A DNA stretch of 62,665 nucleotides from Desulfamplus magnetovallimortis (GTDB taxonomy: Bacteria > Desulfobacterota > Desulfobacteria > Desulfobacterales > Desulfobacteraceae), in NCBI RefSeq assembly GCF_900170035.1, contig NZ_LT828542.1, positions 375,746 through 438,410 on the forward strand. The letters are read 5' to 3'. The first letter of the stretch is position 1. Each line of letters starts with the position of its first letter. A model generated the notes under the pieces. The model did not search any database. It saw only the letters and a list, made by a program, of their open reading frames with translations, and was not told where the DNA came from. The position numbers were made by a program, and so were the translations under genes. Positions 1,350 through 37,651 of this stretch are shown here, piece by piece.

Positions 1350-1455
1350 GGCATCTTTCATTTGCCAGTTTACATTTTCCTGAACACAATGGCGGTTTTT
1401 CTGGTAGCCTGTTCCGGAAAGTGTAAAGTACTTTATGCATGATATGAAGGATGCC
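1350..1455. mobile_element. Family A miniature element, copy 1 (8-bp target duplication)
   Basis: This is a 106-bp imperfect palindrome starting GGCATCTTTCAT and ending ATGAAGGATGCC, with inner arms like CAGTTTACATTTTCC and GGAAAGTGTAAAGTAC. It is flanked by the exact 8-bp direct repeat CTCATTTT (1342-1349 and 1456-1463). No coding capacity. It lies between the divergently transcribed radical SAM gene and the acyltransferase gene. Confidence 0.85.
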
Positions 1456-1491
1456 CTCATTTTGACTTCTTTCATATCTACTCAAAAGTAG

Positions 1492-1596
1492 GGCATCTTT
1501 CATATCTACCCAAAAGTAGTTTACACTATTTTGAATGAGACACCTTTAAAATGGTAAGATGCTCAGAAAATTGCAAAGCAGTAAATGAAAGATACC
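1492..1596. repeat. Degenerate family A copy
   Basis: The left arm GGCATCTTTCATATCTACCC, an AAAAGTAGTTTACAC core, and a right arm AGTAAATGAAAGATACC resemble family A. A partial second left arm (1464-1490) precedes it, as if the 5' end were duplicated. No exact target duplication is seen. The rest of the 1217-1700 gap holds nothing else recognisable. Confidence 0.55.
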
Positions 1597-1700
1597 AAAA
1601 TACCCAAATTATTTTCATGACATAAAATTGCCAAGATCATTAGGGTTCAAGGTGCTTATTAAAAGAGTCATTACGACTTAACTTGCTAACAGGAGCATGC

Positions 1701-2285
1701 ATGAAAACAGTTTTAAGCCATTTAGGAAAACTTATTTACCGCATTACAGGATGGAGTTATGATGAAATTCCGGCAGAGGAATGGCAGCCTAAACAGCTCT
1801 TCATCGGATTTCCACATACATCCAATATGGATACTGTAATGTCATTCACATATGCAAAAGTCATTAAAGTTGATGCCAAGGTGCTTATCAAATCTGACTG
1901 GTTTTTCTGGCCAATGTCCTCATTTCTTAATGCACTTGGAGGAATTCCCATTGTCAGGGAAAAGGGAAGCGGCTTTGTGGATAATATAATAAAGGAGTTT
2001 AAAAGTCAGAAAAAATTTATCCTTGCAATTGTTCCTGAAGGAACTCGGAAAAAAATTGAAAAAATTAAAACAGGCTTCTGGAATATTGCAAAAGGAGCCG
2101 ATGTTCCTGTTGCATGCTGGTTTTTTGACAACAAGCGCAAAAAAATGACATGGGTAGGTCATCTTATACCAGGAGATAACCTTGTGGAGGACTTGCTCAA
2201 ATTAGAAAACATGTATAAAAAACATGGATACCAGATTCCCCTTGGAGATATAAATCAATACAAAAAAATAAAAGGAGGTCAATGA
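1701..2285 (+). CDS. Lysophospholipid (1-acylglycerol-3-phosphate type) acyltransferase
   Basis: A 194-residue PlsC-fold acyltransferase. The HTSNMD motif (HX4D catalytic pair) and the EGTR motif around residue 118 are the signatures of enzymes that move an acyl chain from acyl-ACP/CoA to a lysolipid at the inner membrane. The ATG at 1701 is preferred over the upstream TTG at 1683 because AGGAG (1691-1695) sits five bases before it. It is somewhat shorter than classic PlsC (about 240 residues) and lacks an obvious N-terminal transmembrane segment. This resembles the compact acyltransferases often annotated as glycerol acyltransferase. It is followed after only three bases by ilvE, so the two are probably co-transcribed. 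The exact acceptor lipid is unknown. Confidence 0.85.
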   Translation: MKTVLSHLGKLIYRITGWSYDEIPAEEWQPKQLFIGFPHTSNMDTVMSFTYAKVIKVDAKVLIKSDWFFWPMSSFLNALGGIPIVREKGSGFVDNIIKEFKSQKKFILAIVPEGTRKKIEKIKTGFWNIAKGADVPVACWFFDNKRKKMTWVGHLIPGDNLVEDLLKLENMYKKHGYQIPLGDINQYKKIKGGQ

Positions 2286-2288
2286 AGT

Positions 2289-3350
2289 ATGGAAATCAAA
2301 ATCACTGAAAAAGAGTTAAAAGGCACAAGACCCGACGATTCTTCCCTGGGTTTTGGCACAATTTTTACAGACCATATGTTTAATATGGACTACTCTCCTG
2401 ACAAGGGATGGCATAATCCCAGGATTGAACCGTTTCAGAACCTTTCAATGTCCCCTGCAACCATGACCCTCCATTATGGTCAATCCATTTTTGAGGGGCT
2501 AAAGGCATATAAAAATACTAACGGTGAAATTCAGCTTTTCAGGGCACGGGACAATTTCATAAGATTCAACAGATCTGCAAAGGGACTTTGTATTCCGGAA
2601 CTTGATATAGATGATGCCATGGAAGCACTGAAAACGCTTCTCAGGCTTGAAAAAGATTGGATTCCTGAAACCCCTGGCACATCGCTTTATATCCGCCCTA
2701 CAATCATTGCAACTGATCCCTTTCTTGGAGTAAGGGCATCCCATACCTACAGGTTTTTCATCATTCTTTCACCTGTTGGAGCTTATTATTCCGGCGGTTT
2801 CAGCCCTGTAAAAATATGGATATCCAAAGAGCATGTAAGAGCAGTGCGGGGCGGAGTGGGAGAATACAAAACAGCCGGAAATTATGCGGCAAGCCTCTAT
2901 GCGTCTGAAAAGGCAAAAAAGGAAGGTTATGCACAGGTTCTGTGGCTTGATGGCGTAGAACTAAAATACATTGAAGAAGTGGGCGCCATGAACATTTTCT
3001 TTGTGATAAATGATGAGCTTGCAACCCCAAGTCTCAACGGCAGCATCCTTCCCGGTATTACCCGTGACTCTGTTATCAAACTTGGTAAAAAATGGGGTAT
3101 GAAGGTATCAGAGCGCAAAATTGCCATGGATGAAGTAATTGAAGCGTCAAAGAATGGCTCACTAAAAGAGGTTTTTGGCTCAGGTACAGCCGCTGTTATC
3201 TCTCCTGTTGGGGAAATCCGTTACGGAGATGAAAAAATCCAGATAGGAGATGGCAAGGCAGGTGACATTGCCGTAAAATTTAACTCAGCCATAACTGATA
3301 TCCAGTATGGAAAAGCAGAGGACAGTGAAAACTGGATTGAAAAGGTCTGA
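2289..3350 (+). CDS. ilvE: Branched-chain amino acid aminotransferase
   Basis: A 353-residue fold-type IV PLP enzyme of the longer (group II, mitochondrial-like) BCAT class. It transfers the amino group between glutamate and the 2-oxoacids of leucine, isoleucine and valine. The PLP lysine is Lys194 in GEYKTAGNYAAS. LHYGQSIFEGLKAY near residue 61 and the C-terminal FGSGTAAVISPV glycine-rich loop are also diagnostic. The strong AGGAGGT ribosome-binding site lies inside the last codons of the acyltransferase gene, pointing to translational linkage. Length and motifs look intact. Confidence 0.95.
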   Translation: MEIKITEKELKGTRPDDSSLGFGTIFTDHMFNMDYSPDKGWHNPRIEPFQNLSMSPATMTLHYGQSIFEGLKAYKNTNGEIQLFRARDNFIRFNRSAKGLCIPELDIDDAMEALKTLLRLEKDWIPETPGTSLYIRPTIIATDPFLGVRASHTYRFFIILSPVGAYYSGGFSPVKIWISKEHVRAVRGGVGEYKTAGNYAASLYASEKAKKEGYAQVLWLDGVELKYIEEVGAMNIFFVINDELATPSLNGSILPGITRDSVIKLGKKWGMKVSERKIAMDEVIEASKNGSLKEVFGSGTAAVISPVGEIRYGDEKIQIGDGKAGDIAVKFNSAITDIQYGKAEDSENWIEKV

Positions 3351-3412
3351 AGACCAATTAAACATGCAGTGCTTTGTCGTCAATTTATTTAAGGGTTGTT
3401 GTCTTTGGATTT

Positions 3413-3600
3413 TTTACCGTGGAAATGGATACAAATTTCCATATTCGGGGGTGGCTGGATGCCGGCCATGACCGTTTACCGTGAAAATGACTATCATTTT
3501 GATAGTTGGGGGTGATTGATACACAATCATGCCCGTTTACCTTGAAAATACCCTTACCATTTTCATGGTCGGGGGTGGCAGTTGAATTCGGCCATGAAGG
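3413..3600. repeat. Family D, three head-to-tail units
   Basis: Three successive units (about 3413-3474, 3475-3535 and 3536-3600) begin TTTACCGTG(G/A)AAATG or TTTACCTTGAAAAT. They contain a short inverted repeat (ATTTTCA-type arms), then GGGGGTG and end near CATGCCCG or CATGACCG. Other copies occur at 9769, 11314, 20469, 28747 and 42809. No coding capacity. The gap 3351-3838 consists of this array and the following family A compound copy. Confidence 0.7.
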
Positions 3601-3663: not shown

Positions 3664-3830
3664 GGCATCCTTCATATGAACCCAAAAGTACTTTACACTT
3701 TTTTGTGAGAAATTCTTGCCACTCAAAGTTTTCTCTCCGGAAAGTGTAAACTAGGAAATGAACCATGCCGAGATTTCCGCTGCCGAGAGTTTTCTCTCCG
3801 AAAAGTGTAAACCGGTAAATGAAGAATGCC
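3664..3830. repeat. Compound family A copy with duplicated right arm
   Basis: GGCATCCTTCATATGAACCC begins a family A unit whose right arm (TTTTCTCTCCGGAAAGTGTAAAC...ATGCC, ending 3769) is followed by a second similar right arm ending AATGCC at 3830. The flanking sequences AGCAAAGA and AGCAGAAT share only AGCA, so no clean target duplication remains. It ends eight bases from the stop codon of the J-domain gene. Confidence 0.6.
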
Positions 3831-3838
3831 AGCAGAAT

Positions 3839-6108: not shown

Positions 6109-6945
6109 ACCTTGTTAAATATGTATAATTTAAACTATAGAACAAGGTTAAATGAACAATCCAGTCTCATCCCCATTATGGCATATAACGGCCATCATGG
6201 ATGCCTGGCCACAATGGAACAGATGATAATTTTCATACAAACAGCCCTGTTACATAGACTTTCATACAAAAATATTGAGTGACAGACAACAACCGGAAAA
6301 TTGACCTTTAACCAGTTCCCATTGCTGCTGATCAAGTCATAAAAAAAGAGTGTACATAAATGAACACTGTTTTCCCCAGAAAGTTATTGTCATGCATAAA
6401 CATTTTGCCATCCACCATTTACCTTTTTACACTTTTAGAAACTCATTGCCGTTTTTTTGGGCTCTCAATCCTAAAGTGCAAAGTTGCTCCAGAATAATAT
6501 GTTAAAATGGCAATATTTTTTGCACAAACAAAAGAACAATCATAAACTTAAAAAACAGCAGCAAACACAATTCAGACGAATTAATTCGGTATAAAGATCA
6601 TATCATTGGAAGAGTGTCAATATAATTATCGACTGCAGCAGTAGAAATTTATTCTATTGTGGCTATATCTGAACAAGCACACATAAATAAAATGAAAATA
6701 AAGGCAAGAGTAAAATTCTGAAATAACTAATATTTTTTATTAGAAAACCTCAATAAAACATTGATATATAGAGACTTTAATGCATCGTTGTGATGCCCTC
6801 GCAATAATGAGGTTTTATTTGAATCTCCGGCGTGGGTCTCAATTTATCCGAAGATTCATTTTTCGTTGAGAATGTTTTTTCATGGGTGTTTATTAGTAGG
6901 CCTCTGTAATATTTGACACAAAAGCAACCACTCACAATCAAAACA
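6109..6945. other. Intergenic region with an eroded family A copy
   Basis: 837 bases without a convincing gene. An eroded family A unit lies at about 6407-6511 (left arm GCCATCCACCATTTACC plus TTTTTACACTTTT, right arm AAAGTGCAAAGT...AATGGC). A sequence at 6765-6800 (AGACTTTAATGCATCGTTGTG) resembles one at 59935-59957, next to a family F copy. The short open frames here lack ribosome-binding sites and were not called. Confidence 0.4.
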
Positions 6946-8115: not shown

Positions 8116-8199
8116 TTTATATGAAAGTCTCCTTAACAGACTGTTTTAAAAACGACTTTCATCCCTTCGATTGTGGCGGTAATCCACCATGTACGTTAT
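8116..8199. repeat. Family F repeat, copy 1
   Basis: 84 bases identical to 59979-60062. It contains the inverted repeat ATGAAAGTC/GACTTTCAT and a smaller GTGG/CCAC hairpin. Its right end (GTACGTTAT) supplies the TAA stop codon of the lipoprotein gene on the minus strand. Confidence 0.8.
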
Positions 8200-9047
8200 T
8201 GAAAATCATCCGGTTTCAAATCAATCTCCTTCATTTTTCTTTTCTTGAAGGGAATTTTGAAAACCCGGTTAAGGTTATAATCTCCAACCCAAAAGTAACC
8301 ATCGCCAAGTGCAACTGAAGAGGGTCTTTCAATCATTGGAGGCAGTTTTACTTCGTGTGTGAAGCGGCCGTTGCTTGTATCCATTCTCAGTAGGCGGGAT
8401 GTGACGCAGCGTTTTTCATTATTCCTGCACTCATCCATTCCAACCACCCATATATACCCTTCACAATCCCATGTCAGACCTGATGGTCGCTTGATGGGTG
8501 AGAAATAAACATTTTCAATGGCTTCAAGTTCCGGGTTAAACTGCACTATTTTCATACTGTATTGAGAGATAAGCCACAATGATTTGCCGTCAAATGCGAT
8601 TCCGTTGGGGGACTTGACTGGAGATTTGATGGATAGAACAAACTCACGATTGGGTTTTATTTTTAAAATCTGGTCATTTTTTGCATCTGCAATCCATAAA
8701 AATCCCTCACCGCAACACTCGCCCTCCCATGCCATTCCACATATATCCATCAATCTTCTCTGGGGGCCAGGAAAACGTCCAGATGTGTAACTTCCACCAT
8801 TCAGCAATGTATCTTTAGAAAAAACATAAAAAGGTTCTGTAACAATATCCCTGGCAAACTGAATCTGATTGGAGCAGCCAAGCACAAGGTTTTTTCCATC
8901 CCACGCAATTGCAGCCGGCCCGACCTGGGACTCATGCTCAAAGGCGGCAAAAAGATCTGTCTTGAACTGCTGGTAACCGCATCCTGAAACAAGAAGTAAT
9001 ACCAGAAGTGATATCACGGGAACTATTTTTCGATATGGAGGGGTCAT
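8196..9047 (-). CDS. Lipoprotein with beta-propeller (NHL/YncE-like) repeats
   Basis: 283 residues with a classic lipoprotein signal: MTPPYRKIVPVISLLVLLLVSGC, the lipobox being LVSG/C23. The mature part repeats blade-like units: GPAAIAWDGKNLVLG, DICGMAWEGE...LWIADAKNDQILKI, PNGIAFDGKSLWLIS, PSGLTWDCEGYIWVVG, PSSVALGDGYFWVGDYNLNRVFKI. These resemble NHL or Vgb-like propellers, which act in ligand or protein binding or as lyases. It is probably membrane-tethered in the periplasm. The stop codon TAA lies inside the family F repeat, so the C-terminus may have been reset by that insertion. The ligand is unknown. Confidence 0.82.
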   Translation of the reverse strand: MTPPYRKIVPVISLLVLLLVSGCGYQQFKTDLFAAFEHESQVGPAAIAWDGKNLVLGCSNQIQFARDIVTEPFYVFSKDTLLNGGSYTSGRFPGPQRRLMDICGMAWEGECCGEGFLWIADAKNDQILKIKPNREFVLSIKSPVKSPNGIAFDGKSLWLISQYSMKIVQFNPELEAIENVYFSPIKRPSGLTWDCEGYIWVVGMDECRNNEKRCVTSRLLRMDTSNGRFTHEVKLPPMIERPSSVALGDGYFWVGDYNLNRVFKIPFKKRKMKEIDLKPDDFQ

Positions 9048-9399: not shown

Positions 9400-9485
9400 T
9401 AGGCAACCTCCTTTATTAATGAGGTTTAAACAGAATCCAAGGTTTAATTTTGATAACCATGTTAGCAAATTTTACTTCATTTTTT

Positions 9486-9591
9486 GGCATGCTTCATTTC
9501 CCAGTTTACACTTTCCTGAGAGAAAGCTCTGAGTGGTGGGAGTCTCTCACAAAAAAGTTTAAAGTACTGTTAGGTTCATATGAAGGATGCC
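9486..9591. mobile_element. Family A element, copy with exact 8-bp duplication
   Basis: 106 bp from GGCATGCTTCATTTCCC to ATGAAGGATGCC, flanked on both sides by CATTTTTT (9478-9485 and 9592-9599). Same length and arms as the copies at 1350, 28463 and 37546. Confidence 0.88.
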
Positions 9592-9768
9592 CATTTTTTG
9601 AGAGCATATTAAAATGCCCATTTTTATACAACTTTGCAAAAGCCAGTCAACAAGGAATCAACAGGAATTTAAAACACATATTTATTTTTATCGTCATGAA
9701 AAAAAAGTCAAGGTGAATTAAGAGTATATAAGATATATTTTCCGCCGTTTATCATTGATGCAGTAACA

Positions 9769-9831
9769 GGCATGATTGTTTACGTATCAATCACACCCAA
9801 ATATAAAAATGATAGTCATTTTCACGGTGAA
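9769..9831. repeat. Family D unit (reverse orientation)
   Basis: Starts GGCATGATTGTTTACGTATC and ends CATTTTCACGGTGAA. It is the reverse complement of the unit at 11314 and nearly the same as 28763-28831. Confidence 0.65.
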
Positions 9832-9898
9832 AAATCACAATTTTTTACTGCATCATTCATATCAACCAAAAGCAATCTACATTTTTCATGCCGAAAAT

Positions 9899-10109
9899 GG
9901 TATGCTTCATGACTACTTTAAACTTTCTGAAAGCAATCTACTGCATTGTCAAATCTAAAAATTAGGGTTCGGTTAATTGTAGAGACAAGGCCTGCCTTGT
10001 CTCTACGTTGCAGATAACCCTAAAATTAAGTATTGGCAGTGCACTACCTTTTTAAAAGTGTTCCCACCAAAAAAGTGAAAAGTACCTTTGCAGGGATATG
10101 AAGGATACT
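9899..10109. mobile_element. Old family A copy split by a family C insertion
   Basis: The left arm GGTATGCTTCATGACTAC...TTTAAACTTTC and the right arm ACCAAAAAAGTGAAAAGTAC...ATGAAGGATACT belong to one family A unit. They are separated by a complete family C element (9942-10043). The outer flanks CCGAAAAT (9891-9898) and CCGAAGTT (10110-10117) match at six of eight bases, a decayed target duplication. The right one overlaps the pyrE stop codon. Confidence 0.6.
9942..10043. mobile_element. Family C element (4-bp duplication CTAC)
   Basis: 102 bp with terminal inverted repeats TGCATTGTCAAA and TTGGCAGTGCA. Central perfect palindrome arms are GTAGAGACAAGG and CCTTGTCTCTAC, flanked by a TTAGGGTT/AACCCTAA pair. 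The direct repeat CTAC lies at 9938-9941 and 10044-10047. No coding capacity. Confidence 0.8.
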
Positions 10110-10676: not shown

Positions 10677-10814
10677 TTGATTTTATCCTTGAATTTTAGG
10701 TATAAAACAGCAATCATTGAGAATCAGAACTTTTCTTTGATATTTTATTGTTTTTTTGTATATTTTACAAATATTGAAATAATGAAAAGCCTTAACTCAA
10801 GAAATACAATTAAT

Positions 10815-11012
10815 ACCCAAAATCGACATCTTATTGCTTTTGCATAAGTTATTGCAGTTGTCTGAACCAGGATAACCAGGTTGGATAGGATGCTCAGGAT
10901 AGATAATCCTGCCTTATCCTTGGATAATCCTGCCTTATCTTTGTTAATCTTGGGAATCCTGATTCAGACAGTTTTGACAAGGCTTACAAGATCATAGGTG
11001 TCAACTTTGAGT
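10815..11012. mobile_element. Family B element (4-bp duplication TAAT)
   Basis: 198 bp. Ends ACCCAAAATCGACATC and GGTGTCAACTTTGAGT are inverted. The interior carries the TGTCTGAA...TTCAGACA inverted pair and repeated GGATAATCCTGCC/AACCAGG words. The exact direct repeat TAAT lies at 10811-10814 and 11013-11016. Confidence 0.82.
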
Positions 11013-11021
11013 TAATAAGAT

Positions 11022-11071: not shown

Positions 11072-11313
11072 GTAAGGAAAACTGTTTTGCAGCACTCCTT
11101 GACAATAAAAATGATATACCAGCAATTTTCATTTGAGTCAAACATGTAAAATCAGATACAATACCTTTTGACACTCTCGTGAAAAGCCCAAAATACCAGA
11201 CGTGCTAAAAATATTGCATTTCAGAGAGTTGAACTTAGCGCCCTTCGGGCGGGCTTTTCCATAACCAAACTGCTTTTGCAGGATAAAAATGGAAATTCCT
11301 ATACTATATATAT

Positions 11314-11456
11314 TTACCGTGAAAATGAGTATCATTTTTATATTTGGGGGGGGGTGATTGATACGTAATCAATCATGCCCGTTTACCGTGAAAACACCCC
11401 CATCATTTTCATAATCGGGGGCGGCAGTAGAGAGAAGGCATGCCTTGTCTCTGCTG
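11314..11456. repeat. Two family D units, the second holding a family C-type palindrome core
   Basis: TTTACCGTGAAAATGAGTATC begins the first unit (11319 onward), and a second starts at about 11382. In the second, the usual GGCAG-to-GCCATG loop is occupied by a palindrome AGAGAGAAGGCATGCC/TTGTCTCT (about 11427-11454), the same core as in family C. A small CGCCC-TTC-GGGCG hairpin upstream (11239-11251) followed by TTTT is the only other feature seen in 11072-11313. Confidence 0.6.
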
Positions 11457-11492: not shown

Positions 11493-11598
11493 GGCATGCT
11501 TCATTTCCCAGTTTACACTTTCCGGAGAGAAAACTCTGTGTGGCGGGAATCTCTCACAAAAAAGTGTAAAGTATTTTTGGGTTCAAATGAAGGATGCC
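11493..11598. mobile_element. Family A element upstream of ftsE
   Basis: 106 bp, GGCATGCTTCATTTCCC to ATGAAGGATGCC. Flanks GCTAAAGT (11485-11492) and GATAAAGC (11599-11606) match at six of eight bases, so the target duplication is slightly decayed. It ends 34 bases before the ftsE start, so it lies in the leader region. Confidence 0.78.
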
Positions 11599-13427: not shown

Positions 13428-13514
13428 CTTATTTTAGGTTTATCTGCAACGTAGAGACAAGGCATGCCTTGTCTCTACAGTTAACCGAACCCTAACTTTA
13501 GCTTGGACAATGCA
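13428..13514. mobile_element. Family C copy with eroded left end (reverse orientation)
   Basis: TTATTTTAGG...TTATCTGCAACGTAGAGACAAGG, the central palindrome, then GGACAATGCA match family C in reverse. The right end is intact with CTAA next to it, but the left end no longer shows TGCACTGTC. It fills the gap between ftsX and envC and contributes the sequence just upstream of the envC start. Confidence 0.65.
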
Positions 13515-13526
13515 CTAAAGCGGAAA

Positions 13527-17543: not shown

Positions 17544-17573
17544 TGCTCTGTTAGCTACAGAAGCTTCTTAATC

Positions 17574-17860
17574 ACTCAAAATCGACACCTATAACCTCTT
17601 GAGCCTTGTCAATAGTGTCTGAATCAGGATTCCCAAGATTAACAGGATAAAGCAGGATTACTATCCTGAACATCTTGGTTATCTTGGTTATCCTGATTCA
17701 GACAAATTCAGACAAATTCAGTAAATTGAAAAAAGCAATAAGGGAGTCCGCAGAATCTAATTTCCCACCATAGTCGATGAAGAAGCTTCAAAATAGAAAG
17801 CAGCAACAATGACAAATGGTAATTTAGCAACCACTGACTCCCTAAGATGTCGATTTTTAG
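17574..17860. mobile_element. Family B element interrupted by a 101-bp insertion
   Basis: Starts ACTCAAAATCGACACC and ends AAGATGTCGATTTTTAG. The interior TGTCTGAATCAGG and CCTGATTCAGACA arms are as in other copies. Between GCAATAA and AAGATGTCG it is broken by the element at 17742-17842. No clean 4-bp duplication is seen at the outer ends. The element lies directly upstream of the AAA-ATPase gene. Confidence 0.75.
17742..17842. mobile_element. 101-bp miniature element with GGGAGTC/GACTCCC ends
   Basis: It is inserted in the family B copy. Terminal inverted repeats GGGAGTC and GACTCCC extend imperfectly inward (about 27 bases). The target duplication is TAA (17739-17741 and 17843-17845). Removing it restores the family B sequence GCAATAAGATGTCG found at 57765. 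Only one copy is seen in the window. Confidence 0.7.
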
Positions 17861-20522: not shown

Positions 20523-20804
20523 TGCATTGTCAAAGCTAAAAATTAGGGTTCGTTTAATTGTAAACTCAAAGTCGATACCTATGATCTTGTAAACCTTGTC
20601 AACACTGTCTGAATCAGGATTCCCAAGATTGACAGGATAAGGCAGGATTATCTATCCTGAGCATCCTGGTTATCCTGGTTATCCTGATTCAGACAACTGC
20701 AATAACTTATACAAAATCAACAAGATGTCGATTTTGAGTGTAAAGACAAGGAATGCCTTGTCTCTACGTTGCAGATAACACTAAAATTAAGTCTTGACAG
20801 TGCA
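20523..20804. mobile_element. Family C element containing a family B insertion
   Basis: Ends TGCATTGTCAAAGC and GTCTTGACAGTGCA are inverted and flanked by the direct repeat CTAT (20519-20522 and 20805-20808). Without the inner family B element the sequence collapses to the same about 102-bp layout as 9942-10043. Confidence 0.85.
20564..20739. mobile_element. Family B element inserted in family C
   Basis: 176 bp, ACTCAAAGTCGATACC to GATGTCGATTTTGAGT, flanked by GTAA (20560-20563 and 20740-20743). Deleting the element and one GTAA gives TTAATTGTAAAGACAAGG. The uninterrupted copy at 9942 reads TTAATTGTAGAGACAAGG, so the empty site is visible in the same window. Confidence 0.88.
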
Positions 20805-20826
20805 CTATGTCCGGCCATGAAGGTTC

Positions 20827-21714: not shown

Positions 21715-23142
21715 CTAATTTTTTCCATCACCCCTCACTGGTGGATTAAAATATCCATGAATAAGTTCAGGAAACTCTTTCCTAAGCTCTTGAATAATGA
21801 ATTCCATACCAAGTGGAGGGTTTTGCCCTCCTCCTGCTTCCTGCATGACATTAAAATAACTCAATGGGTCATAATTCATATTCCGCCACTGAATCATGTT
21901 GACAGGATATTTTGCAAGGAAATGCCTTAAAGCCTCAAACTCCTTTTCTGAATCGGTAACTCCAGGACAGTTAAGATAGTTGATGGAGACAAACTTTCCT
22001 TTTTCACCTGCTGTTTCAATGCTTTTAATCACATCTTCATAAGAGTATCCCTTTGGCCTGAAATATCTCAAATAGCATGATTTTCTCACTGAATTCATGC
22101 TGACCCGGACAGAATCAAGGCCGGCATCAAATAGCCGTGCCAAAAGAAGCGGCAGGCCTGCGTTTGTGTTCATGTTTATGGTGGCATTACCCCCTGATTC
22201 ACGAATCATCTTTATGGCTGGTTCAATTACATCAAATGCCGTAAGGGGGTCTCCTTCACACCCCTGCCCGAAACTTGCCACTGCCTGTGCATCAGGAACC
22301 CTTGCAAAATGCTCAAGTGTTACTTCTGCAATTTCAACAGAAAAAGGCGTAAAATTTATCCTTTCCTGGCATGCAACAAGATTATTTTCACGCTGAAATG
22401 AGATGCAACCCATACAATCAGCATTACATACCCGTGAAGTGGGAAGCGGTGCTTCATACCTTCCAAGAAAAAAGTTCTTTGCAGCAGGACAGCCATATTC
22501 AAGGGCACATCGTTCAAGATGACGCATGAGCCTGTTCTCCGGATACTTCTGGCGCATAAATTCCACTCCGGCAACAATACCGTCATGGGGCATAAGTCTT
22601 AAATCCTGACGTGGCTCTCTGTCAACACAGATGGCTGCCGAGTAAAAACCGCCATGGCTCCATCCACATGCACCATAGGAAAAAAGGGGAAGAAGGCGTT
22701 CCGGTAAAGGCTTCTCATAGGCACAAAAATATCGGTTTACATATCCGGGGGAGTTAAATACAGCAACAGGAAAAATTCTTTCACCAGGAAGGTATGGATT
22801 TTCATCAAGGGTTTCAAAACTGCCCCTGTCAAAATTGAAAACAAGTGCTTTCATGCCCGGAAGCATCATAAGTTCACTGCCGTGGGGCATCTCAATGGTT
22901 TCATTTGAGGTCAGAAGCAGAGGTTTTTCACCCTGCATTGCAGCAGCACCATAATCTTCAAGCTCAAAGATTTCGCCTTTTTCATTGGCCACCACAGCAT
23001 TCAGGGGAATTGCTGCTGTGATATTATTATTACGGTTTTTCACCACCTGATTGTTAGGAGTTTTAACAACCTGATTGTTCTGTTTTTTCCCCATTTGCCC
23101 TTTCCGGCTAACCATATTCTTGAAACCTTTTTTTCTTTTCAT
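21715..23142 (-). CDS. Radical SAM protein, translationally coupled to alpha-2-macroglobulin gene
   Basis: 475 residues. A basic N-terminus with the tandem words NNQVVKTPNNQVVKNRNNN is followed by an about 180-residue domain of unknown type (ending CALEYGCPAAKNFFLG), then the radical SAM core. The cluster motif is RVCNADCMGCISFQ (CxxxCxxC, about residue 235), with a SFGQGCEGDPLT segment like the GGEP-type SAM loop, MNTNAG and VRVSMNS strands. Start ATG overlaps the upstream gene's stop (ATGA), so the two proteins are made together. The target is unknown. Anaerobic-type enzyme chemistry (peptide modification or methylthiolation) is possible but unproven. Confidence 0.85.
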   Translation of the reverse strand: MKRKKGFKNMVSRKGQMGKKQNNQVVKTPNNQVVKNRNNNITAAIPLNAVVANEKGEIFELEDYGAAAMQGEKPLLLTSNETIEMPHGSELMMLPGMKALVFNFDRGSFETLDENPYLPGERIFPVAVFNSPGYVNRYFCAYEKPLPERLLPLFSYGACGWSHGGFYSAAICVDREPRQDLRLMPHDGIVAGVEFMRQKYPENRLMRHLERCALEYGCPAAKNFFLGRYEAPLPTSRVCNADCMGCISFQRENNLVACQERINFTPFSVEIAEVTLEHFARVPDAQAVASFGQGCEGDPLTAFDVIEPAIKMIRESGGNATINMNTNAGLPLLLARLFDAGLDSVRVSMNSVRKSCYLRYFRPKGYSYEDVIKSIETAGEKGKFVSINYLNCPGVTDSEKEFEALRHFLAKYPVNMIQWRNMNYDPLSYFNVMQEAGGGQNPPLGMEFIIQELRKEFPELIHGYFNPPVRGDGKN

Positions 23143-26100
23143 TTAACTCCAGCTACAGGCATTAAAGGTAAAGCATCACCCACGCCCCTTATATATGGTC
23201 TGTACATATCTTCAATAAGAGGCGGAGGCACAAAAAATTCTCCGGGAGTAACCACCACAACTGAATAAAAAAGTCTGTACTTTTTTCCGGCATCAACATC
23301 AACTGCTGCGGCAAACCTGTCATCCCTGTACTCCCTGTGCTTTATCACAAACTCGTCATGCCATGTTGCAATGCTTTTTTCATCCACTACAACATCCCCA
23401 ATGGTACTTCGACCATTTAAAGAGGGATCTTCAAGCTCAAGACATGCCGGCAACAAGTCAGTAACAATGGCGTCAGACATATCCTGGTCACAATCAAACT
23501 GTAACTCAACTATCATTCTTCGACCGCTTCGCAAAGCATCCTCTGGCAATGCATTGATATAAAAGGTGCTTGCCGGCAAAGGCTTTCCTGAAGGGTCAAG
23601 ATAGCGACGTTTTAAAGTTGCTCCAAGATTTTCAACTTTTGGTTTTTCCTTGGGATATCCATTCATTGCAACATCTATAAAGAGATCACTGCTGCCAATG
23701 TTGGCAAGGGTGAAGCCATTCGCAGATTCACCTTTGCTGCTTACAATCTGCTTTAATTTATTCCCTTTAAGAGAAAGCATCCTTGCCCCTGCTTTTATTT
23801 TGGCCTGCCACTCCTTCCGGTTGTTTTTCATGGCAGATATCCCTGCCATTACAAGTGTATTTCTCTCCTGGGTGCTTAGCCATTTACGCTGATGCAGCTC
23901 ATCAAATACCTTCATTATAAACCTTGATTTTTCACCATAATCAGGAGCATAGTTTGAAAGAAGATAAAATGAAAATGCAGCATCTCTTAAATTACTGCCG
24001 TAATCCCCGTAGTAGAGTCTCTCATTTCTCTCTGAATCAAGGGCACGTTGAAAGGCTTCCATGGCAAGATTTGCATCTCCTGCAAGATAGAGGGCAATAC
24101 CTGCCTGTACCAATCCAAGCGAACCTCTGATTTTATCTTTTACTGCCCGATAGACTGAACGGGCATCACCAAGGGTAAGACTTTGAACCCTTGCAAGTAC
24201 CATTGCGGAATAGGCTCTGACAGCAGCATTGTAGTGGCCATTATCATCATCAAAATGCGGTCTTACAGTCTGGCCTCGCCTTACATATACAAGAAGGCGA
24301 TCAAGTGCCTTTGACAAAGGCCCCAGGGGCACTTCATAACCTGCTTGTCTTGCATTTATAAGAAAATCCGTCACATATGCAGACAGCCAGAAATCTTCCT
24401 GACTATCTGCATTCCAGAGGCCAAAACCTCCGGTGGATTTCTGTTTTTCAACAAGACGCTGAATTCCGAGAATAATTTTTTCTGTACGTTCCCTGTCACT
24501 TTGTGACGCTATCCCAAGGGATTTAATATCAGATGAATTCATTATCACATGGGGATATATTCCGCTTGTTGTCTGCTCAAGGCATCCATAGGGGTATGCA
24601 TTAAGGTACCTGACATGATCAGATACATTTATTGGGGGAGTTGAATTGATGGCAGCAGAAACTGTAATTGTATCTTTTATGAGACCGACAAAGGCATCTG
24701 GGGAGCCATTGCCTACAGGAAATGAATCAATGTCTCCACTTCCAATGGAGAAAATTTCAGAAGGTTTCAAGGATTTTCTCCATGTTTCTGTCACAGCCGG
24801 ATATGCAGGTCTTGTCTCAAGAAACCACTTTTTAACCATAACCCGTCTGTTAGCGACATGCTCCTGATTCGCACTGTTAAGATTCTCAGCGCCAAGATTC
24901 CCACTGTTAAGGGCATTAACTATTTTATCTACATCCTTTAAATCTGCTTTGGCATGCCTCACAATTCCGTCAATTTTACACTGAATGATTGCTCTGCCAA
25001 CTTTCTGCTCTGCCATTACAGGCAAGGTAACACTTTCCCTTTGATTATTAGCGATCTTAAGGTGATGCGATGTTGCTCCCAATGGTTTTAATGGTTCAGT
25101 TGTCTCTATTAAAAGGTCAAGATCCTGAAAAACTCCGCTTAAATTATGAAGATCAATCATCACCTGACTTCGATCACCCATTGATAAAAATCTTGGCATG
25201 GAGATCTGAACAACCAAAGGTGCTGCAACAACCACCTCTTTTTCAGCAGAACCAAAGATGTCAGAGCCATGGGCAACGGCCATGAATCGCAAAGAGCCGT
25301 TAAAATCCGGGATATGAAAACGAAAATTTGCAACACCATTTCCATCCACCGGAATGGCTTTGCTGTAAAGGGCAACTATCTGAACATCAGTTGATGGTCG
25401 GTCTCCTCCACGGGAAAGCTTTGGAGCATCTCCGCCAAATCTCTGGGAAGCCCATGCGCCATCCCCTGTTTCAATGAGCTTCTGGTAAAGATCATGAAGC
25501 TCAACACCATATTTGCGGGGCTGAAAAAAATGGCTCCATGGAGAGGGTGTTTCAAACTCTGTGAGATTAAGGATACCAACATCAACAGCAGCAAGTGTTA
25601 CCCATATTTTTTCTTTTGGTTTTTTATTCATAAAGACACTTACAGGAATATCAACAAACTGATCCGGCTCAATTTTATCAGGTATCTCAATATCAAGGGA
25701 AATTTTGCGGGCATTTCTGTCAATGGGCAGATGAATCAAACCAACAGAACGCTTGGGAAGAGCCTTAATATTTACCTCTCCCGGGCGTACCACAAGTGCA
25801 GATACATAGATATCATGACGCTTCCAGTCAGGTTCAATCTCTATTTCAAAAACCTTACCCTCCGGCGGAACTGTTATGGAACGGGTAAGAAGATTTGTCT
25901 CTGCTTCAACAAAGAGATAGCCACTTCCACCTTCAGGGGCTTTGACCATTACCTTTGCAATATCTCCTGGATAATAGGAGGGTTTATCTAAGGAGATGGA
26001 TATCCTGTCAGGGCGTCCGGCAACATCTTCACCTGCTTCTGACCATCCACCTTTTCCATAACGCCAGCCTGCCCATATTGGAAAACTTGTAACAAGTCCT

Positions 26101-28424
26101 GTTTCAGGGTGTGTCAACTCAAGACGGTAACCTCCCCATTTAACGGAAACATTAACCATGGCCGAACCATCATGGGGAATATCAACAGAAAATCGCTCAA
26201 CAGGATAAAACTGACGGGTGAACTGCCATTTCCATGATCCATTTTTGTACTCCCAGTAGTAATCCCGATGCTCACGTATAAGGAGAGCCTTTATCCCGCT
26301 GGCTGCAACCCGCTGCCCTGCCCTGTCAAGGGAAATAACCTCAAACCCTGCCACACTGTCACTTTTGACTTGATATACATGATCTTTTTTTGAATTTTTT
26401 TTGCGGCCATTTGCAATGGATTGTGCCTCCCCTGAGTCTGTGGCATCATCATCGTCTTTTCCATCATCAGCAAGGCTTCTTATGGCAAGAAGGGAGTCAG
26501 CAGGCCAAACCCGCCATGATCGGCTTCTTACAACAGCTCTTCCACCAGATTCATAAAGGCTTGCATTTGCAGTAAGCCATGCCGGTGATTTAATGCTGCT
26601 CCACTGGTTGGGAATTTTCAGCAAGCCTTTACCATTATCATCAAGGATCGTTTTATCGCTTTTGAATGTCTGACGTAGGTTTTCTGTAATGTCACCGGCT
26701 TCATATCCAGGCCATTTTTCCGGAAATATTTCACGGGCAGGAACAAGGCTTAATGATGCATCAACCATGCTTCCTGAAGCAGGAGCACCATAGAGATAAT
26801 CTCCCTGAAGAGCTATGAAAAGCGGATCATTTTTTCCAAGAATGTCTCCTTGTATCTTTCGATCTTCTACTTTTTTAACACTTTTTTCATTGGACTGTTC
26901 ATCAATGGTGTATCCACTCTTTTGTTCATCTGAATTATCACTATCATCCGACAGGAACTCAGGGTTATCAATGATAAGCTTCATCCGTTCAGGGAGAAAC
27001 TCTGCAACCGTGAAAAAATATGGCTTCAATGCATTGCCTGCATGGTTAAAATCAATTCTCCAACTACCGGTCAAGGCATCTGAAGGGAGAGAATATTCAT
27101 GGTGGTAGTACCCAGGGTGGCTGCTCTTAATAGTGAATTCGCTGGCCATACGGCCATCCGGCCTGAAAACCCTTGCACTTACCGGCAGTGCCGCCATAAT
27201 TTCGCCATCGTGCTTTCTTAAAAGAGCATCCATCACAACCGTTTCCCCTGGTCTGTAGAGATCACGAGGCCCATAGACAAAGAGATCCATGGCTTTAAAA
27301 GGTTCGGTTGCTGCCTTAAATTCAGAAAGATCCATTGCAGGAACATCCATCTTAAGAAGGCTTATGTGACTTTTATTGCGGGCAATTATGTAATAAAGCT
27401 GCTGTAAATCCCCCCTCATGGAGGCCAAACCAATGGTGTTTGTTTTAACCTGTACTATTCTTAAGCCTTTTTTATCATATGCCTCAACAAGAATATCAGA
27501 AAGCGGTTTTGCGGTTTCAAGGCTTTGGATATGAACCTGAAGCTCATTTTCATATCTTCTTGCATGAACTCCAAGATCACTTATGGTAAACCATGTAAAG
27601 CTGTAGTTATATTCATATATTCCCGCCCCTTTAAGGACAGCCACATATACACCCGGCTTCTTAAGCTGCTCAATATGTGTAACCGGAATGTTGACTTCAG
27701 TTCTGAGATCTTTTTTAATATCAAGATCCCATCTTCCGGAATAGACAAGATCAGTAATTTTATTAAGCTCGTCACTCATGTAATAGGCAATATTGCTGTT
27801 TCTTGCAAAATCATTGAAAAAATCGTTGATAGATTTCTCTTTGACTCTGAAAAAATCAATATCTGCTTTGTCGATATTGACACTGTTGACAGGCAATCCC
27901 TTGACAAGCTTTGATGCAAGGATAAATCCAGTACTTCCAAACGCTATCATTGGCTCAACAGGTCTTGTCTTCACATTAAACTCTGCTGAGTTTTTCAGGA
28001 AAGCTCCAGAAAGACCCTTTAAACCTTTATGAACCTTTATGGTGTAAGCTGTACCTGGTTCAATATTTGAAAAATAGATAACATTAGGATCATCTGAAAG
28101 AACCCAGCCCCCTTCCACTGCAATGCCATCGTCTTTAAACAGAGAGAAATAACTGTCAAAATTCTGGGTTGTATCAAGGGGAAGTGAAAAGGTAAGGGCA
28201 ATTGCATTGGTATCTCCAACTGTCTGCTGGGCAGCAAACTGTACCTCAAGAGGCTCTACAGCACTTTCTGCAATTTTTGATGTGGAGTTTTCGATATTAG
28301 AATTTTCTACATTACCGGAGGAGTAATTAATTCCGGCAGCCGTCATGCTGGCTTTGGAATAACCGTTTACAGCAACTAAAAAAGTTGTCAAAAAAAACAG
28401 GGTAATTACAACAGCCTTTTTCAT
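23139..28424 (-). CDS. Bacterial alpha-2-macroglobulin (thioester-containing)
   Basis: 1761 residues from ATG 28424 (GGGGG-rich site upstream). The frame open to 28592 runs through a transposable repeat and is not used. The signal peptide is MKKAVVITLFFLTTFLVAVNG with no lipobox cysteine. Macroglobulin-like beta domains follow, then the thioester motif YGCLEQ with Cys1281 and Gln1284, the alpha-helical thioester domain (about 1265-1560) and a C-terminal receptor-like beta domain. Such proteins trap attacking proteases in the periplasm by covalent thioester capture. The usual partner, penicillin-binding protein 1C, is not adjacent. Instead a radical SAM gene is coupled by an ATGA overlap. Confidence 0.92.
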   Translation of the reverse strand: MKKAVVITLFFLTTFLVAVNGYSKASMTAAGINYSSGNVENSNIENSTSKIAESAVEPLEVQFAAQQTVGDTNAIALTFSLPLDTTQNFDSYFSLFKDDGIAVEGGWVLSDDPNVIYFSNIEPGTAYTIKVHKGLKGLSGAFLKNSAEFNVKTRPVEPMIAFGSTGFILASKLVKGLPVNSVNIDKADIDFFRVKEKSINDFFNDFARNSNIAYYMSDELNKITDLVYSGRWDLDIKKDLRTEVNIPVTHIEQLKKPGVYVAVLKGAGIYEYNYSFTWFTISDLGVHARRYENELQVHIQSLETAKPLSDILVEAYDKKGLRIVQVKTNTIGLASMRGDLQQLYYIIARNKSHISLLKMDVPAMDLSEFKAATEPFKAMDLFVYGPRDLYRPGETVVMDALLRKHDGEIMAALPVSARVFRPDGRMASEFTIKSSHPGYYHHEYSLPSDALTGSWRIDFNHAGNALKPYFFTVAEFLPERMKLIIDNPEFLSDDSDNSDEQKSGYTIDEQSNEKSVKKVEDRKIQGDILGKNDPLFIALQGDYLYGAPASGSMVDASLSLVPAREIFPEKWPGYEAGDITENLRQTFKSDKTILDDNGKGLLKIPNQWSSIKSPAWLTANASLYESGGRAVVRSRSWRVWPADSLLAIRSLADDGKDDDDATDSGEAQSIANGRKKNSKKDHVYQVKSDSVAGFEVISLDRAGQRVAASGIKALLIREHRDYYWEYKNGSWKWQFTRQFYPVERFSVDIPHDGSAMVNVSVKWGGYRLELTHPETGLVTSFPIWAGWRYGKGGWSEAGEDVAGRPDRISISLDKPSYYPGDIAKVMVKAPEGGSGYLFVEAETNLLTRSITVPPEGKVFEIEIEPDWKRHDIYVSALVVRPGEVNIKALPKRSVGLIHLPIDRNARKISLDIEIPDKIEPDQFVDIPVSVFMNKKPKEKIWVTLAAVDVGILNLTEFETPSPWSHFFQPRKYGVELHDLYQKLIETGDGAWASQRFGGDAPKLSRGGDRPSTDVQIVALYSKAIPVDGNGVANFRFHIPDFNGSLRFMAVAHGSDIFGSAEKEVVVAAPLVVQISMPRFLSMGDRSQVMIDLHNLSGVFQDLDLLIETTEPLKPLGATSHHLKIANNQRESVTLPVMAEQKVGRAIIQCKIDGIVRHAKADLKDVDKIVNALNSGNLGAENLNSANQEHVANRRVMVKKWFLETRPAYPAVTETWRKSLKPSEIFSIGSGDIDSFPVGNGSPDAFVGLIKDTITVSAAINSTPPINVSDHVRYLNAYPYGCLEQTTSGIYPHVIMNSSDIKSLGIASQSDRERTEKIILGIQRLVEKQKSTGGFGLWNADSQEDFWLSAYVTDFLINARQAGYEVPLGPLSKALDRLLVYVRRGQTVRPHFDDDNGHYNAAVRAYSAMVLARVQSLTLGDARSVYRAVKDKIRGSLGLVQAGIALYLAGDANLAMEAFQRALDSERNERLYYGDYGSNLRDAAFSFYLLSNYAPDYGEKSRFIMKVFDELHQRKWLSTQERNTLVMAGISAMKNNRKEWQAKIKAGARMLSLKGNKLKQIVSSKGESANGFTLANIGSSDLFIDVAMNGYPKEKPKVENLGATLKRRYLDPSGKPLPASTFYINALPEDALRSGRRMIVELQFDCDQDMSDAIVTDLLPACLELEDPSLNGRSTIGDVVVDEKSIATWHDEFVIKHREYRDDRFAAAVDVDAGKKYRLFYSVVVVTPGEFFVPPPLIEDMYRPYIRGVGDALPLMPVAGVK

Positions 28425-28462
28425 GATTCCCCCCAATGTCAATATTAAAATGTTAAAAATTG

Positions 28463-28568
28463 GGCATCTTTCATTTCCCAGCTTACACTTTCCCGAAAAG
28501 AATGCCCGTTTCTCGGGGATACTGTTCTGGAAAGTGTAAAGTACTTTCTGTATGATATGAAGGATGCC
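28463..28568. mobile_element. Family A element with exact 8-bp duplication
   Basis: 106 bp, GGCATCTTTCATTTCCC to ATGAAGGATGCC, flanked by AAAAATTG (28455-28462 and 28569-28576). It lies 38 bases upstream of the alpha-2-macroglobulin start. Confidence 0.88.
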
Positions 28569-28587
28569 AAAAATTGCAGGAATTTTA

Positions 28588-28746
28588 GGCATATTTCATT
28601 GGCAGGCTTACAATTTTTCTGAACCATGATTTTCATGATTAAGTGATTATCCTGATTTTTCATCACGTTAATCCTTAAATCCTTTAATCATGGTTCAAAA
28701 TTTTCAAAAATGTGTGCATTACTTTTGGGTTGAGATGAAAGATGTC
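28588..28746. repeat. Longer degenerate family A-like copy
   Basis: The left arm GGCATATTTCATTGGCAGGC and the right arm ACTTTTGGGTTGAGATGAAAGATGTC frame an extra about 80-base inverted pair (GAACCATGATT...AATCATGGTTC). No exact target duplication was found. Confidence 0.5.
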
Positions 28747-28831
28747 GGGGTGTTTTCACGGTAAACAGGCATGATTGATTACGTATCAATCACCCCCAAA
28801 TATAAAAATGATAGTCATTTTCACGGTAAAT
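28747..28831. repeat. Family D unit (reverse orientation)
   Basis: GTTTTCACGGTAAACAGGC, then GTATCAATCACCCCCAAATA and CATTTTCACGGTAAA match the other D units in reverse. It ends two bases from the iorB stop codon. The gap 28425-28833 is fully occupied by repeats. Confidence 0.65.
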
Positions 28832-28833
28832 TA

Positions 28834-29436
28834 TCAAATAGAACAGCATGCCTTTGCGGCATCAAATCCCAGGCTGAATGCCTTTAGATTCATATCAACA
28901 AATGCAGGTCTGGTCTTGAGTTGAATAGCCTTTTCAACACTTTCTCTGGTCAAATCAAGAATATTGGACTGCACAAGTGCGCCCACCATAACAATATTAA
29001 GGGTCATTGGGCTTCCTGCCTCTTTTGCCAAAGTCATTCCATCAAAAGCAATAAGACGGGAAGTGCGCTCTTCAATCAGCCTTTTCATCTCGTCAATTTC
29101 AGGGTAAATACCCCTTCCAATGGCTGCCGTAAAAGGCGGAACAGGAGAAAGGCTTGTAACAACCTGGGTATCTGCATTGCATCGGCCCATGGCTCTCAAT
29201 GTCTCTGCCGGTTCAAAACCAACAAGAAGATCAGCCTCTCCATCGGAAATAATGGTGCTGACAGCATCTCCAAATATAATTGAAGATTCCACAACACCGC
29301 CCCTCTGGGCCATACCATGAATTTCACTCATGCGGACAGGTATTCCGGATAACAGTGCAGCTTCACCAAGCACCTTTGATGCCAGAAGATTACCCTGTCC
29401 GCCCACAGCAACAATTATCAATCTTTTTGTATCCAT
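28834..29436 (-). CDS. iorB: Indolepyruvate ferredoxin oxidoreductase, beta subunit
   Basis: 200 residues of the pyruvate-ferredoxin oxidoreductase gamma-type domain. Signatures are VGGQGNLLASKVLGEAA near the N-terminus and the HGMAQRGGVVESSIIFGD motif. With IorA it oxidatively decarboxylates arylpyruvates (indolepyruvate, phenylpyruvate) to aryl-CoA thioesters, reducing ferredoxin, in the cytosol of anaerobes degrading aromatic amino acids. It starts 10 bases after the iorA stop. Length is normal for the family. Confidence 0.93.
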   Translation of the reverse strand: MDTKRLIIVAVGGQGNLLASKVLGEAALLSGIPVRMSEIHGMAQRGGVVESSIIFGDAVSTIISDGEADLLVGFEPAETLRAMGRCNADTQVVTSLSPVPPFTAAIGRGIYPEIDEMKRLIEERTSRLIAFDGMTLAKEAGSPMTLNIVMVGALVQSNILDLTRESVEKAIQLKTRPAFVDMNLKAFSLGFDAAKACCSI

Positions 29437-34374: not shown

Positions 34375-34474
34375 ATATAGCCTCCTGAACCTTTTTTTGC
34401 CTCACTGAATTTATTGATAGCAACCTGGATGTTTTGGACTCTTTACGAAACCATCAAAAAATGTAAATCAAAAC

Positions 34475-34597
34475 GGCATCCATACATATATCCACAAAAG
34501 TACTTTACATTTTTTTGGGGAATACACTTTTTTGGGGTAAACACCCTGAAAAACGTAGCTTTGTTTCAAAAAGTGTAAAGTGGTTATGAAGCATGCC
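34475..34597. mobile_element. Family A element between phaE and phaC
   Basis: 123 bp, GGCATCCATACATATATCC to ATGAAGCATGCC, with the exact direct repeat ATCAAAAC at 34467-34474 and 34598-34605. It splits the phaE-phaC intergenic space and would form a hairpin in the operon transcript. Confidence 0.85.
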
Positions 34598-34623
34598 ATC
34601 AAAACATTAAGAATCTCTCAATA

Positions 34624-35667: not shown

Positions 35668-35676
35668 GGTACCCTC

Positions 35677-36285: not shown

Positions 36286-36338
36286 TTTTTGCGGCTCTAT
36301 TATTTTTAGGTATTCCGGTTTCAGTGGATTGCCCCCGA

Positions 36339-36364
36339 CATCCTCTCCATTACCGGAGAGGATG
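36339..36364. other. Perfect 10-bp hairpin in the PHA operon leader
   Basis: CATCCTCTCC / GGAGAGGATG with a six-base loop lies 54 bases upstream of the first gene of the PHA operon (minus strand). There is no T-run, so a terminator is unlikely. It could be an operator or RNA leader element. Confidence 0.5.
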
Positions 36365-36389
36365 AAACCAGGTCATCTGACAGTTATAT

Positions 36390-36564
36390 TCTCAAATTCG
36401 ACATCTTATTGTTTTTTTATAGTTACTGAATTTGTCTGAATCAAGATAACCAGGAAAAAAAAGATTTTCAGGATAGATAATCCTGCCTTATCCTGTTAAT
36501 CTTGGGAATCCTGATTCAGACAGTATTGACAAGGCTCAAGAGGTTGTAAGTGTCGATTTTGAGT
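36390..36564. mobile_element. Family B element (4-bp duplication ATAT)
   Basis: 175 bp, TCTCAAATTCGACATC to GTGTCGATTTTGAGT, with ATAT at 36386-36389 and 36565-36568. It lies between the PHA operon and the solute-binding protein gene. Confidence 0.85.
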
Positions 36565-36581
36565 ATATTTCTAACAAAACT

Positions 36582-37328
36582 CTATTTTATTCCATAATTT
36601 TCAAGAATTATTCCATACTTACCATTCTCTTTTATTATGGCAAGTCCCTTATTAAAGGCATCAATCAACTCCTTATGACGAGGATTTGCAAGGCCACACG
36701 TCACATATAAAGGACTGGTGGAAATTGCATTTTCAGTAAACTTTATCTTCTCAAGCAGAGCTGGATCTTCTTTGGCAATAATTACCCTTGCAACTATTTC
36801 ATCTTCAATTGCAAGATCCACCCTTTTACTGGAATGGGTCAGTTTCTTTATATTTGTGATAAAATCATTGGAATCTTCTCTAACAAAATTTGTGGCATTG
36901 GTAAAATCATCTCCATAGCCGTAACCTCTTACAATTCCAACCTTTTTACCGGTCAAACTTTCAAGGCCATTAAATTCAAATGGATCATCCGCAGTTTTAA
37001 TAAACTTTACCTCATTTACAGCATAAGGCTCACTGTACATAAGAAATGCTTTTCTCTGTTCATTCATCCATGTATTGGGAAGAATATCATATTTTCCTTT
37101 TTTCACACCATCAATGGCTCTTGCCCATGGAACATACTCCATTTTAACACTGTATCCCTGTGTTTCATAGGAAGCACGAACTATTTCCAGGGAAAGCCCC
37201 TCCTTGGGTGCGGCAGGATCCACAAAAGGTGGCCAGGGATCCGCTGCAGCAACAATAGTCTTTTCGTCTGCTGTACAAGGCATAACTGACATCAAAAGAA
37301 TGATAACAAGCAAAATCGTTTTTTTCAT
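36582..37328 (-). CDS. Periplasmic solute-binding protein, family 3
   Basis: 248 residues with signal peptide MKKTILLVIILLMSVMPCTA. The SBP_bac_3 fold is shown by VAAADPWPPFVDPAAPKEGLSLEIVRASYETQGYSVKMEYVPWARAIDGVKKGKYDILPN and GKKVGIVRGYGYGDDF. Such proteins bind amino acids or small organic acids in the periplasm, feed an ABC permease, or act as sensors. No permease or ATPase gene is adjacent, so its transporter partner is elsewhere or it signals alone. ACGT-like ligand residues cannot be assigned. Confidence 0.87.
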   Translation of the reverse strand: MKKTILLVIILLMSVMPCTADEKTIVAAADPWPPFVDPAAPKEGLSLEIVRASYETQGYSVKMEYVPWARAIDGVKKGKYDILPNTWMNEQRKAFLMYSEPYAVNEVKFIKTADDPFEFNGLESLTGKKVGIVRGYGYGDDFTNATNFVREDSNDFITNIKKLTHSSKRVDLAIEDEIVARVIIAKEDPALLEKIKFTENAISTSPLYVTCGLANPRHKELIDAFNKGLAIIKENGKYGIILENYGIK

Positions 37329-37545
37329 TGCATTTTCTCCTTTTTAATATTTGCAATAAAAACCAAATTGGTCTCCCCTGAACAGTCAGGGTAACTGCAC
37401 TATCTGAATGGATAACACATTTAGAAATACAGTAATAGTGAAAAAATTATCTATTAAAAATTGACACATTAATTGCTCTGTTCTAATAAATAGCAATCCC
37501 GACAAACGCTGATGCCCTGCCAGCCAACCTGGAATTACAAAAATC

Positions 37546-37651
37546 GGCATATTTCATGGAGCCTCCAAAGTAGTTTACACTTTACTGGGTCAGACCCTCA
37601 AAAAACGGGTGTGATGCCCTTAAAAGTGTAAAGCGGGACATGAAGCATGCC
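37546..37651. mobile_element. Family A element upstream of the RND adaptor gene
   Basis: 106 bp, GGCATATTTCATGGAGCC to ATGAAGCATGCC, with the exact direct repeat CAAAAATC (37538-37545 and 37652-37659). The right copy of the duplication touches the AAGGA ribosome-binding site of the adaptor gene. The remainder of 37329-37545 shows nothing recognisable. Confidence 0.88.

Follow-up and report, generated by a model that had tools for sequence, protein, structure and literature searches.

The window analysed here is a 62,665-nucleotide stretch of the Desulfamplus magnetovallimortis genome, lying within contig C3 of an assembly of 6.68 Mb in 108 contigs (97.3% complete), and it carries dispersed copies of a 106-bp repeat. 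A sequence-only reading of the window had listed five such copies, each flanked by an exact and different 8-bp direct repeat. All five were recovered at their coordinates with these duplications, four of them 106 bp long as had been described and the fifth, at 34475, 123 bp long. The list itself was incomplete, since a sixth flanked copy of 105 bp at 52383 had been overlooked; further copies, some diverged, partial or degenerate, are given in Table 1. Of 200,000 intervals of 106 bp drawn at random from the window, 36 are flanked by an exact 8-bp repeat.

The six flanked copies all lie between open reading frames (ORFs) of at least 120 amino acids (aa), given the likely start of a minus-strand gene for a bacterial alpha-2-macroglobulin. 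Copy 28463 is located 38 bp upstream of that start, an ATG at 28424; the start is our choice, and the mechanical ORF (23139–28592) overlaps the copy. Copy 37546 is located 20 bp upstream of the ATG at 37672 of a HlyD-family gene. A 159-bp element with similar tips, another core and no 8-bp duplication begins 11 bases past the duplication of copy 28463. No window match to Rfam reached the gathering score. Upon folding as single strands, four of the five copies first claimed beat nearly all of their shuffles (z below −2.5), and folding of the 123-bp copy was unremarkable (z −1.8).

The repeat is abundant beyond the window. Its 12-base end, GGCATNCTTCAT, occurs 413 times in the genome (198 on one strand and 215 on the other), as compared with four occurrences (2+2) of the pattern read backwards, and a 29-base left end occurs 159 times, as compared with none in the control. 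From the 413 exact tips, the genome would hold about 200 or more copies. Pairs of tips with at most two mismatches each, 60 to 6000 bp apart, were surveyed in the window together with positions 1–400000 of contig C1 (462 kb). Duplications matching at seven or more of eight positions flanked 24 of 356 tip pairs, all 105, 106 or 126 bp long, while none was found when the same comparison was made 50 bp outside the ends; the duplications are thus not at the chance level that would have spoken against mobility. Exact matches of 8 bp were found 21 times, and exact matches of 4, 5 and 6 bp once each. The 123-bp copy falls outside this count due to a more diverged tip.

With 30 further loci of the genome, chosen for similarity to copy 9486 and so not a random set, the distinct copies with duplications of at least seven of eight positions number 47. 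The duplication is exact in 41. Of the 47 copies, 37 are 106 bp long, five are 105, one is 107, three are 126 and one is 159. The 41 exact duplications are 85–95% A/T at positions 3 to 7, 66% at position 2 and about half A/T at positions 1 and 8. For six of the 47 copies, the joined flanks align to an unbroken repeat elsewhere in the genome, with no gap and at least 75% identity over the junction, revealing the uninterrupted target. The elements are short and gene-less (the 24 flanked pairs of the survey are too short for a transposase gene), bear terminal inverted repeats with GGCATNCTTCAT at both tips, are bounded by a target site duplication of fixed length, and have ends in common with autonomous elements of 1923 and 1951 bp described below. 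The 106-bp repeats are a real and abundant family of miniature inverted-repeat transposable elements (MITEs), ordinary in kind.

Inside the tips lies a second conserved feature, an inner box, TTTACACTTT, whose offset from the tip is +20 on the left side and +28 or +29 on the right; the offsets of +20 and +29 differ by about one helical turn. In the 106-bp copies (n = 37, with one subfamily over-represented), conservation of the boxes is similar to that of the tips: mean pairwise identity is 0.94 and 0.89 in the two boxes, 0.91 and 0.93 in the tips, and 0.62 in the core. Across 88 exactly flanked elements (41 from this genome and 47 from others), identity averages 85% for left ends and 71% for right ends. 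The cores of these 88 elements fall into 29 clusters, or 24 clusters among 82 elements when six composites with a further tip inside are set aside, and this genome has members in six of the 24. Very different DNA can be accommodated between the ends, and therefore many short cores exist under one end pair. Cores captured from other genomic repeats were sought in the 462 kb, where no core had a match except next to family ends. A helical-length rule, by which 105 and 126 bp would equal 10 and 12 turns, was dropped, as other genomes break it with flanked elements that include lengths of 93, 98, 109, 116, 134, 139, 142 and 153 bp. The core of the 126-bp elements holds a palindrome similar to the palindromic GTAGAGACAAGG..CCTTGTCTCTAC repeats found in the window (Table 1).

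The MITE ends belong to a transposon of ~1.9 kb present in related sulfate-reducing bacteria. In ten genomes that bear the end motif, the placement of the tips pointed to longer pairs. Desulfobacterales bacterium HSG2 has an element of 1951 bp with the MITE ends and an exact TGATTTTT duplication; this element codes for a 375-aa frame and an overlapping 163-aa frame, a transposase split over two frames. Genome G284, a single contig of 8.0 Mb, has three letter-identical elements of 1923 bp with an intact gene of 533 aa, two of them flanked by exact 8-bp duplications (CTCCGAGC and AATTTCTC). The boxes of the parent lie at +20 (TTTACAC) and +29 (TTGACAC), the same asymmetric layout as in the MITEs. 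In ten elements with a transposase gene, including the relic in the D. magnetovallimortis genome described below, 23–27 of 31 bases of the left end equal the MITE consensus; at the right end, nine agree at 30–36 of 40 bases and one at 20 of 40 in an ungapped comparison. Further elements, several of them cut by contig ends, have the same left or right ends beside a transposase gene. The tip scan left a 552-aa HSG2 frame (L241) without a right end and a Grevelingen copy (L236) without a left end. An insertion sequence of full length and matching ends, as the sequence-only reading had called for, therefore exists in other genomes, and D. magnetovallimortis retains a broken 5' piece of it.

Matches to the 375-aa query were obtained in seven of 58 relatives and eight of 28 end-motif genomes, some of them only to a distant type that carries DUF6399. 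The full-length transposase query matched 13 of 389 genomes of the class; the 29-base left end is present in 37 of the 389, and both occur together in ten. This association (Fisher odds ratio 43, p 4e-9, kinship uncorrected) is partly built in, because the parent insertion sequence itself carries the left end.

In the D. magnetovallimortis genome, the full-length transposase query gave no match at E ≤ 1e-8 and the 375-aa query none at E ≤ 0.001, and a search with a transposase profile returned one weak match (E 0.062). The place of this match is a relic: an exact 12-base tip is followed by a TTGACACTT box and a transposase start (28 aa, 54% identity, E 1e-5), after which the element is broken off. 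This combination suggests that the parent was probably once present. As far as can be seen in an assembly that is 97.3% complete, a broken fragment is all that is left of it, so that without a returning transposase the copies can probably no longer move.

The parent encodes a DDE-like transposase of ~533 aa (about 520–540 aa) that matched no family of Pfam or NCBIfam at cut-off. Against PHROGs and PDB sequences there was no match at E ≤ 0.001, with nothing below E 0.04 and E 0.3, respectively. Weak profile matches to ISL3, IS256/Mutator and rve domains, all of which are DDE-type, span the second of its acidic motifs. The candidate motifs are DE[IL]F, present in all nine pieces that reach it, and DEG, present in all eight; 54 residues separate DE from DEG in the eight members spanning both and in two DUF6399-carrying proteins. 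EC[IV]NS, a candidate third acidic position, is present in nine pieces. These residues are the putative catalytic ones.

Relatives were found among proteins with a C-terminal DUF6399 domain (PF19936). When the transposase alignment was compared as a profile with one of four proteins, of which two have PF19936 and two, from Acaryochloris, do not, the probability was 97.8% and E 7e-13, from shallow alignments. The likeness sits ahead of the DUF6399 domain, which is why homology to the domain itself was dropped as a reading, and the parent transposases have no PF19936 match. By the pattern applied, the Acaryochloris pair has DE and lacks DEG; the plasmid relatives from Acaryochloris carry the annotation hypothetical protein. 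At the edge of a contig, one frame (L229:3-1307, minus strand) joins a response-regulator receiver domain and a helix-turn-helix-like stretch to a region like the transposase-like DUF6399 carriers, perhaps through an in-frame insertion.

Taken together, these observations make it very probable that the 106-bp repeats are a MITE family carrying the two ends by which a ~1.9-kb insertion sequence would be recognised by its DDE-type transposase. In the model that we propose, the transposase would bind the outer GGCATNCTTCAT tip and the inner TTTACACTTT-like box (+20 / +29) at both ends, cut out or copy the element, and join it to the target with an 8-bp stagger, preferring targets with an A/T-rich centre. 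Gap repair at the target would then generate the 8-bp duplication. A MITE would consist of these ends enclosing other short DNA, very different interiors being tolerated. The earlier proposal of a non-coding miniature transposon that makes 8-bp target duplications and moves in trans is supported, with the ~533-aa protein as the enzyme that would move it.

Several observations weigh against this model. The third G284 copy has no duplication, and at least three of the six left-end matches in that genome belong to the insertion sequence itself, in line with the built-in part of the association. No transposase was detected at E ≤ 1e-8 in 27 of the 37 end-motif genomes, D. magnetovallimortis included; in these the parent may have been lost or may be hidden in assembly gaps. 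Conversely, three transposase-positive genomes are without the end motif, all of them short fragments. The 108-contig assembly could hide an intact parent in a gap, and the assignment of a DDE fold draws on the motifs and on weak profile resemblance.

An unlikely alternative is that the MITE derives from a known family with 8-bp duplications, such as IS1595, ISL3 or IS256; the sequence-only reading had named the first two. ISL3 elements make duplications of 8 bp and IS256 elements of 8–9 bp, and IS1595 elements combine 8-bp duplications with GGC tips, so that duplication length and GG tips both fit. One parent transposase also matches ISL3 at E 0.0049 and Transposase_mut at E 0.0061, both below threshold. 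Against these stand the profile scores, all of which lie below curated cut-offs. Three full-length parent transposases gave no PF12762 (IS1595) match up to E 1; PF01610 (ISL3) reached 17.1 bits against a cut-off of 23 in one of the three and was not listed for the other two; and PF00872 (IS256/Mutator) gave 12.3, 15.9 and 15.7 bits against 21, and NF033543 12.9 and 14.4 against 150 in the two transposases scanned. None of PF12762, PF01610 and PF00872 has a match in the D. magnetovallimortis genome at E ≤ 0.001, leaving IS1595, ISL3 and IS256 unsupported as parents there. PF01609 has six matches in this genome, none flanked by these ends. A de novo search for ends at 32 loci, comprising the IS1595 loci and two others, produced a single result, which lacks these ends.

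It is less likely still that another, unseen transposase moves the elements and that the ~1.9-kb element shares their ends by convergence. The 27 end-motif genomes in which no transposase of the ~1.9-kb type was detected would fit such a view, but the ends agree over ~31 and ~40 bases, unequal inner-box spacing included, a relic of the ~1.9-kb element persists in the D. magnetovallimortis genome, and end and transposase occur together, with the reservations stated above. That the copies are non-mobile repeats (regulatory hairpins, terminators or repeats like repetitive extragenic palindromes) kept by selection or recombination is the least credible explanation, for although their folding and their location between ORFs would suit it, the different exact 8-bp duplications, the six uninterrupted target sites and the existence of an insertion sequence with the same ends all speak for insertion.

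Scanning genome contigs with the 29-base left end yielded at least 82 stretches, of which 80 were characterised by record title. Among the matches listed, most are Desulfobacterota or 'Deltaproteobacteria' by title, including Desulfobacter latus, Desulfamplus metagenome-assembled genomes, Desulfocicer vacuolatum, HSG2, HSG8, Desulfarculaceae and others; also among them are 15 from Candidatus Achromatium palustre, two from one Aquificaceae bin and three from 'Pseudomonadota' bins. Exact 8-bp duplications were found in other genomes as well, including contigs assigned to Achromatium (L102, L124) and Aquificaceae (L100). On an HSG2 contig (C49, locus L207), a dense cluster of end sequences contains nested pairs with a common A/T-rich duplication, AAAAATTT, which suggests that insertion occurred repeatedly at the same target. 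Among plasmid and phage records, the left end gave short matches only (four plasmid and eight phage records). The right end gave short matches in 789 plasmid records; a single one extended over 80% of the query (38 bp, 82.5%, a Desulfosarcina sp. BuS5 plasmid) and is at most a candidate copy. No end sequences were found in the viral contigs searched.

Bacterial MITEs derived from insertion sequences are of similar organization. One example, the hupL MITE of Candidatus Thiomargarita nelsonii, is likewise short and gene-less, with inverted-repeat ends, flanking direct repeats, many copies and an elusive parent; it is described with a direct repeat of 10 bp, an inverted repeat of 19 bp and no parent in ISfinder (PMC4853749), whereas the present family has an 8-bp duplication and full-length parents in other genomes. 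In the published literature on MITEs in sulfate-reducing, magnetotactic and other bacteria, searched mostly without subscription papers, no description of the present elements appears among the papers listed. DUF6399 is not named in the openly accessible papers searched, the ISfinder name ISDol1 (ISNCY/ISDol1) appears in a single one of them, and the literal 12-base tip retrieved five papers, on animals or viruses by title.

More tentatively, at somewhat short of an even chance, the parent founds a yet-unrecognised insertion-sequence family, with a DDE transposase distantly related to DUF6399 carriers and weakly tied to ISL3 and IS256/Mutator, in which the unequal ends act as a portable shell that mobilises short, quite different cores flanked by ~31 bp of left end and ~42 bp of right end. 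If this is true, about two dozen core types would exist under one end pair in Desulfobacterota, and also in Achromatium and the Aquificaceae bin if those assemblies are clean.

Other repeats share the window with the MITE copies (Table 1). A second dispersed family (~55–177 nt, both orientations) has GTTGACAAGGCT-like and CAGGATAACCAGGAT-like stretches; elsewhere in the genome, one or two flanked MITE copies may have inserted into its members, at gapped junctions that fall outside the six clean cases. A third family, in several copies, is built around TTTACCGTGAAAATGA...GGGGGTGATTGATAC...CATGCCCG, and its unbroken members elsewhere in the genome are empty sites for some MITE insertions. Two direct repeats of 101 nt, 94% identical, lie 51.9 kb apart.

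Table 1. Copies of the MITE and other repeats in the window (positions counted from its first nucleotide)
Feature	Position	Strand	Length (bp)	Duplication	Duplication positions	Remarks
MITE copy	1350–1455	+	106	CTCATTTT	1342–1349, 1456–1463	
MITE copy	9486–9591	+	106	CATTTTTT	9478–9485, 9592–9599	
MITE copy	28463–28568	+	106	AAAAATTG	28455–28462, 28569–28576	
MITE copy	34475–34597	-	123	ATCAAAAC	34467–34474, 34598–34605	
MITE copy	37546–37651	-	106	CAAAAATC	37538–37545, 37652–37659	
MITE copy	52383–52487	-	105	AAACGGAA	52375–52382, 52488–52495	decayed tips, exact duplication
MITE copy	1492–1596	-	105	none remaining		diverged
MITE copy	3664–3769	-	106	none		adjoins partial copy 3770–3830
Partial MITE copy	3770–3830	-		none		one end and inner box
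MITE copy	11493–11598	+	106	none		perfect tips
MITE-like copy	6409–6509	+				degenerate, most of tips gone; nhmmer E 2.6e-5
159-bp element	28588–28746		159	none		
Second repeat family	17562–17651, 20552–20738, 46966–47055, 57598–57784, 10810–11018, 36412–36588					
Third repeat family	3411–3529, 9765–9837, 11312–11431, 28735–28836, 42804–42878					
Palindromic repeats	9973–10046, 13445–13518, 20734–20807					
Direct repeats	8116–8216, 59979–60079		101			

With some two hundred or more copies in one genome, certain of them just upstream of genes, this family may influence how genes are expressed and how genomes are rearranged in sulfate reducers. The parent brings to light a DDE-type transposase without a name in the curated protein libraries searched (Pfam, NCBIfam), and its resemblance to DUF6399 carriers offers a testable lead on proteins with that uncharacterised domain. 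With a defined end pair, there is also a way to study how MITEs gain unrelated interiors.

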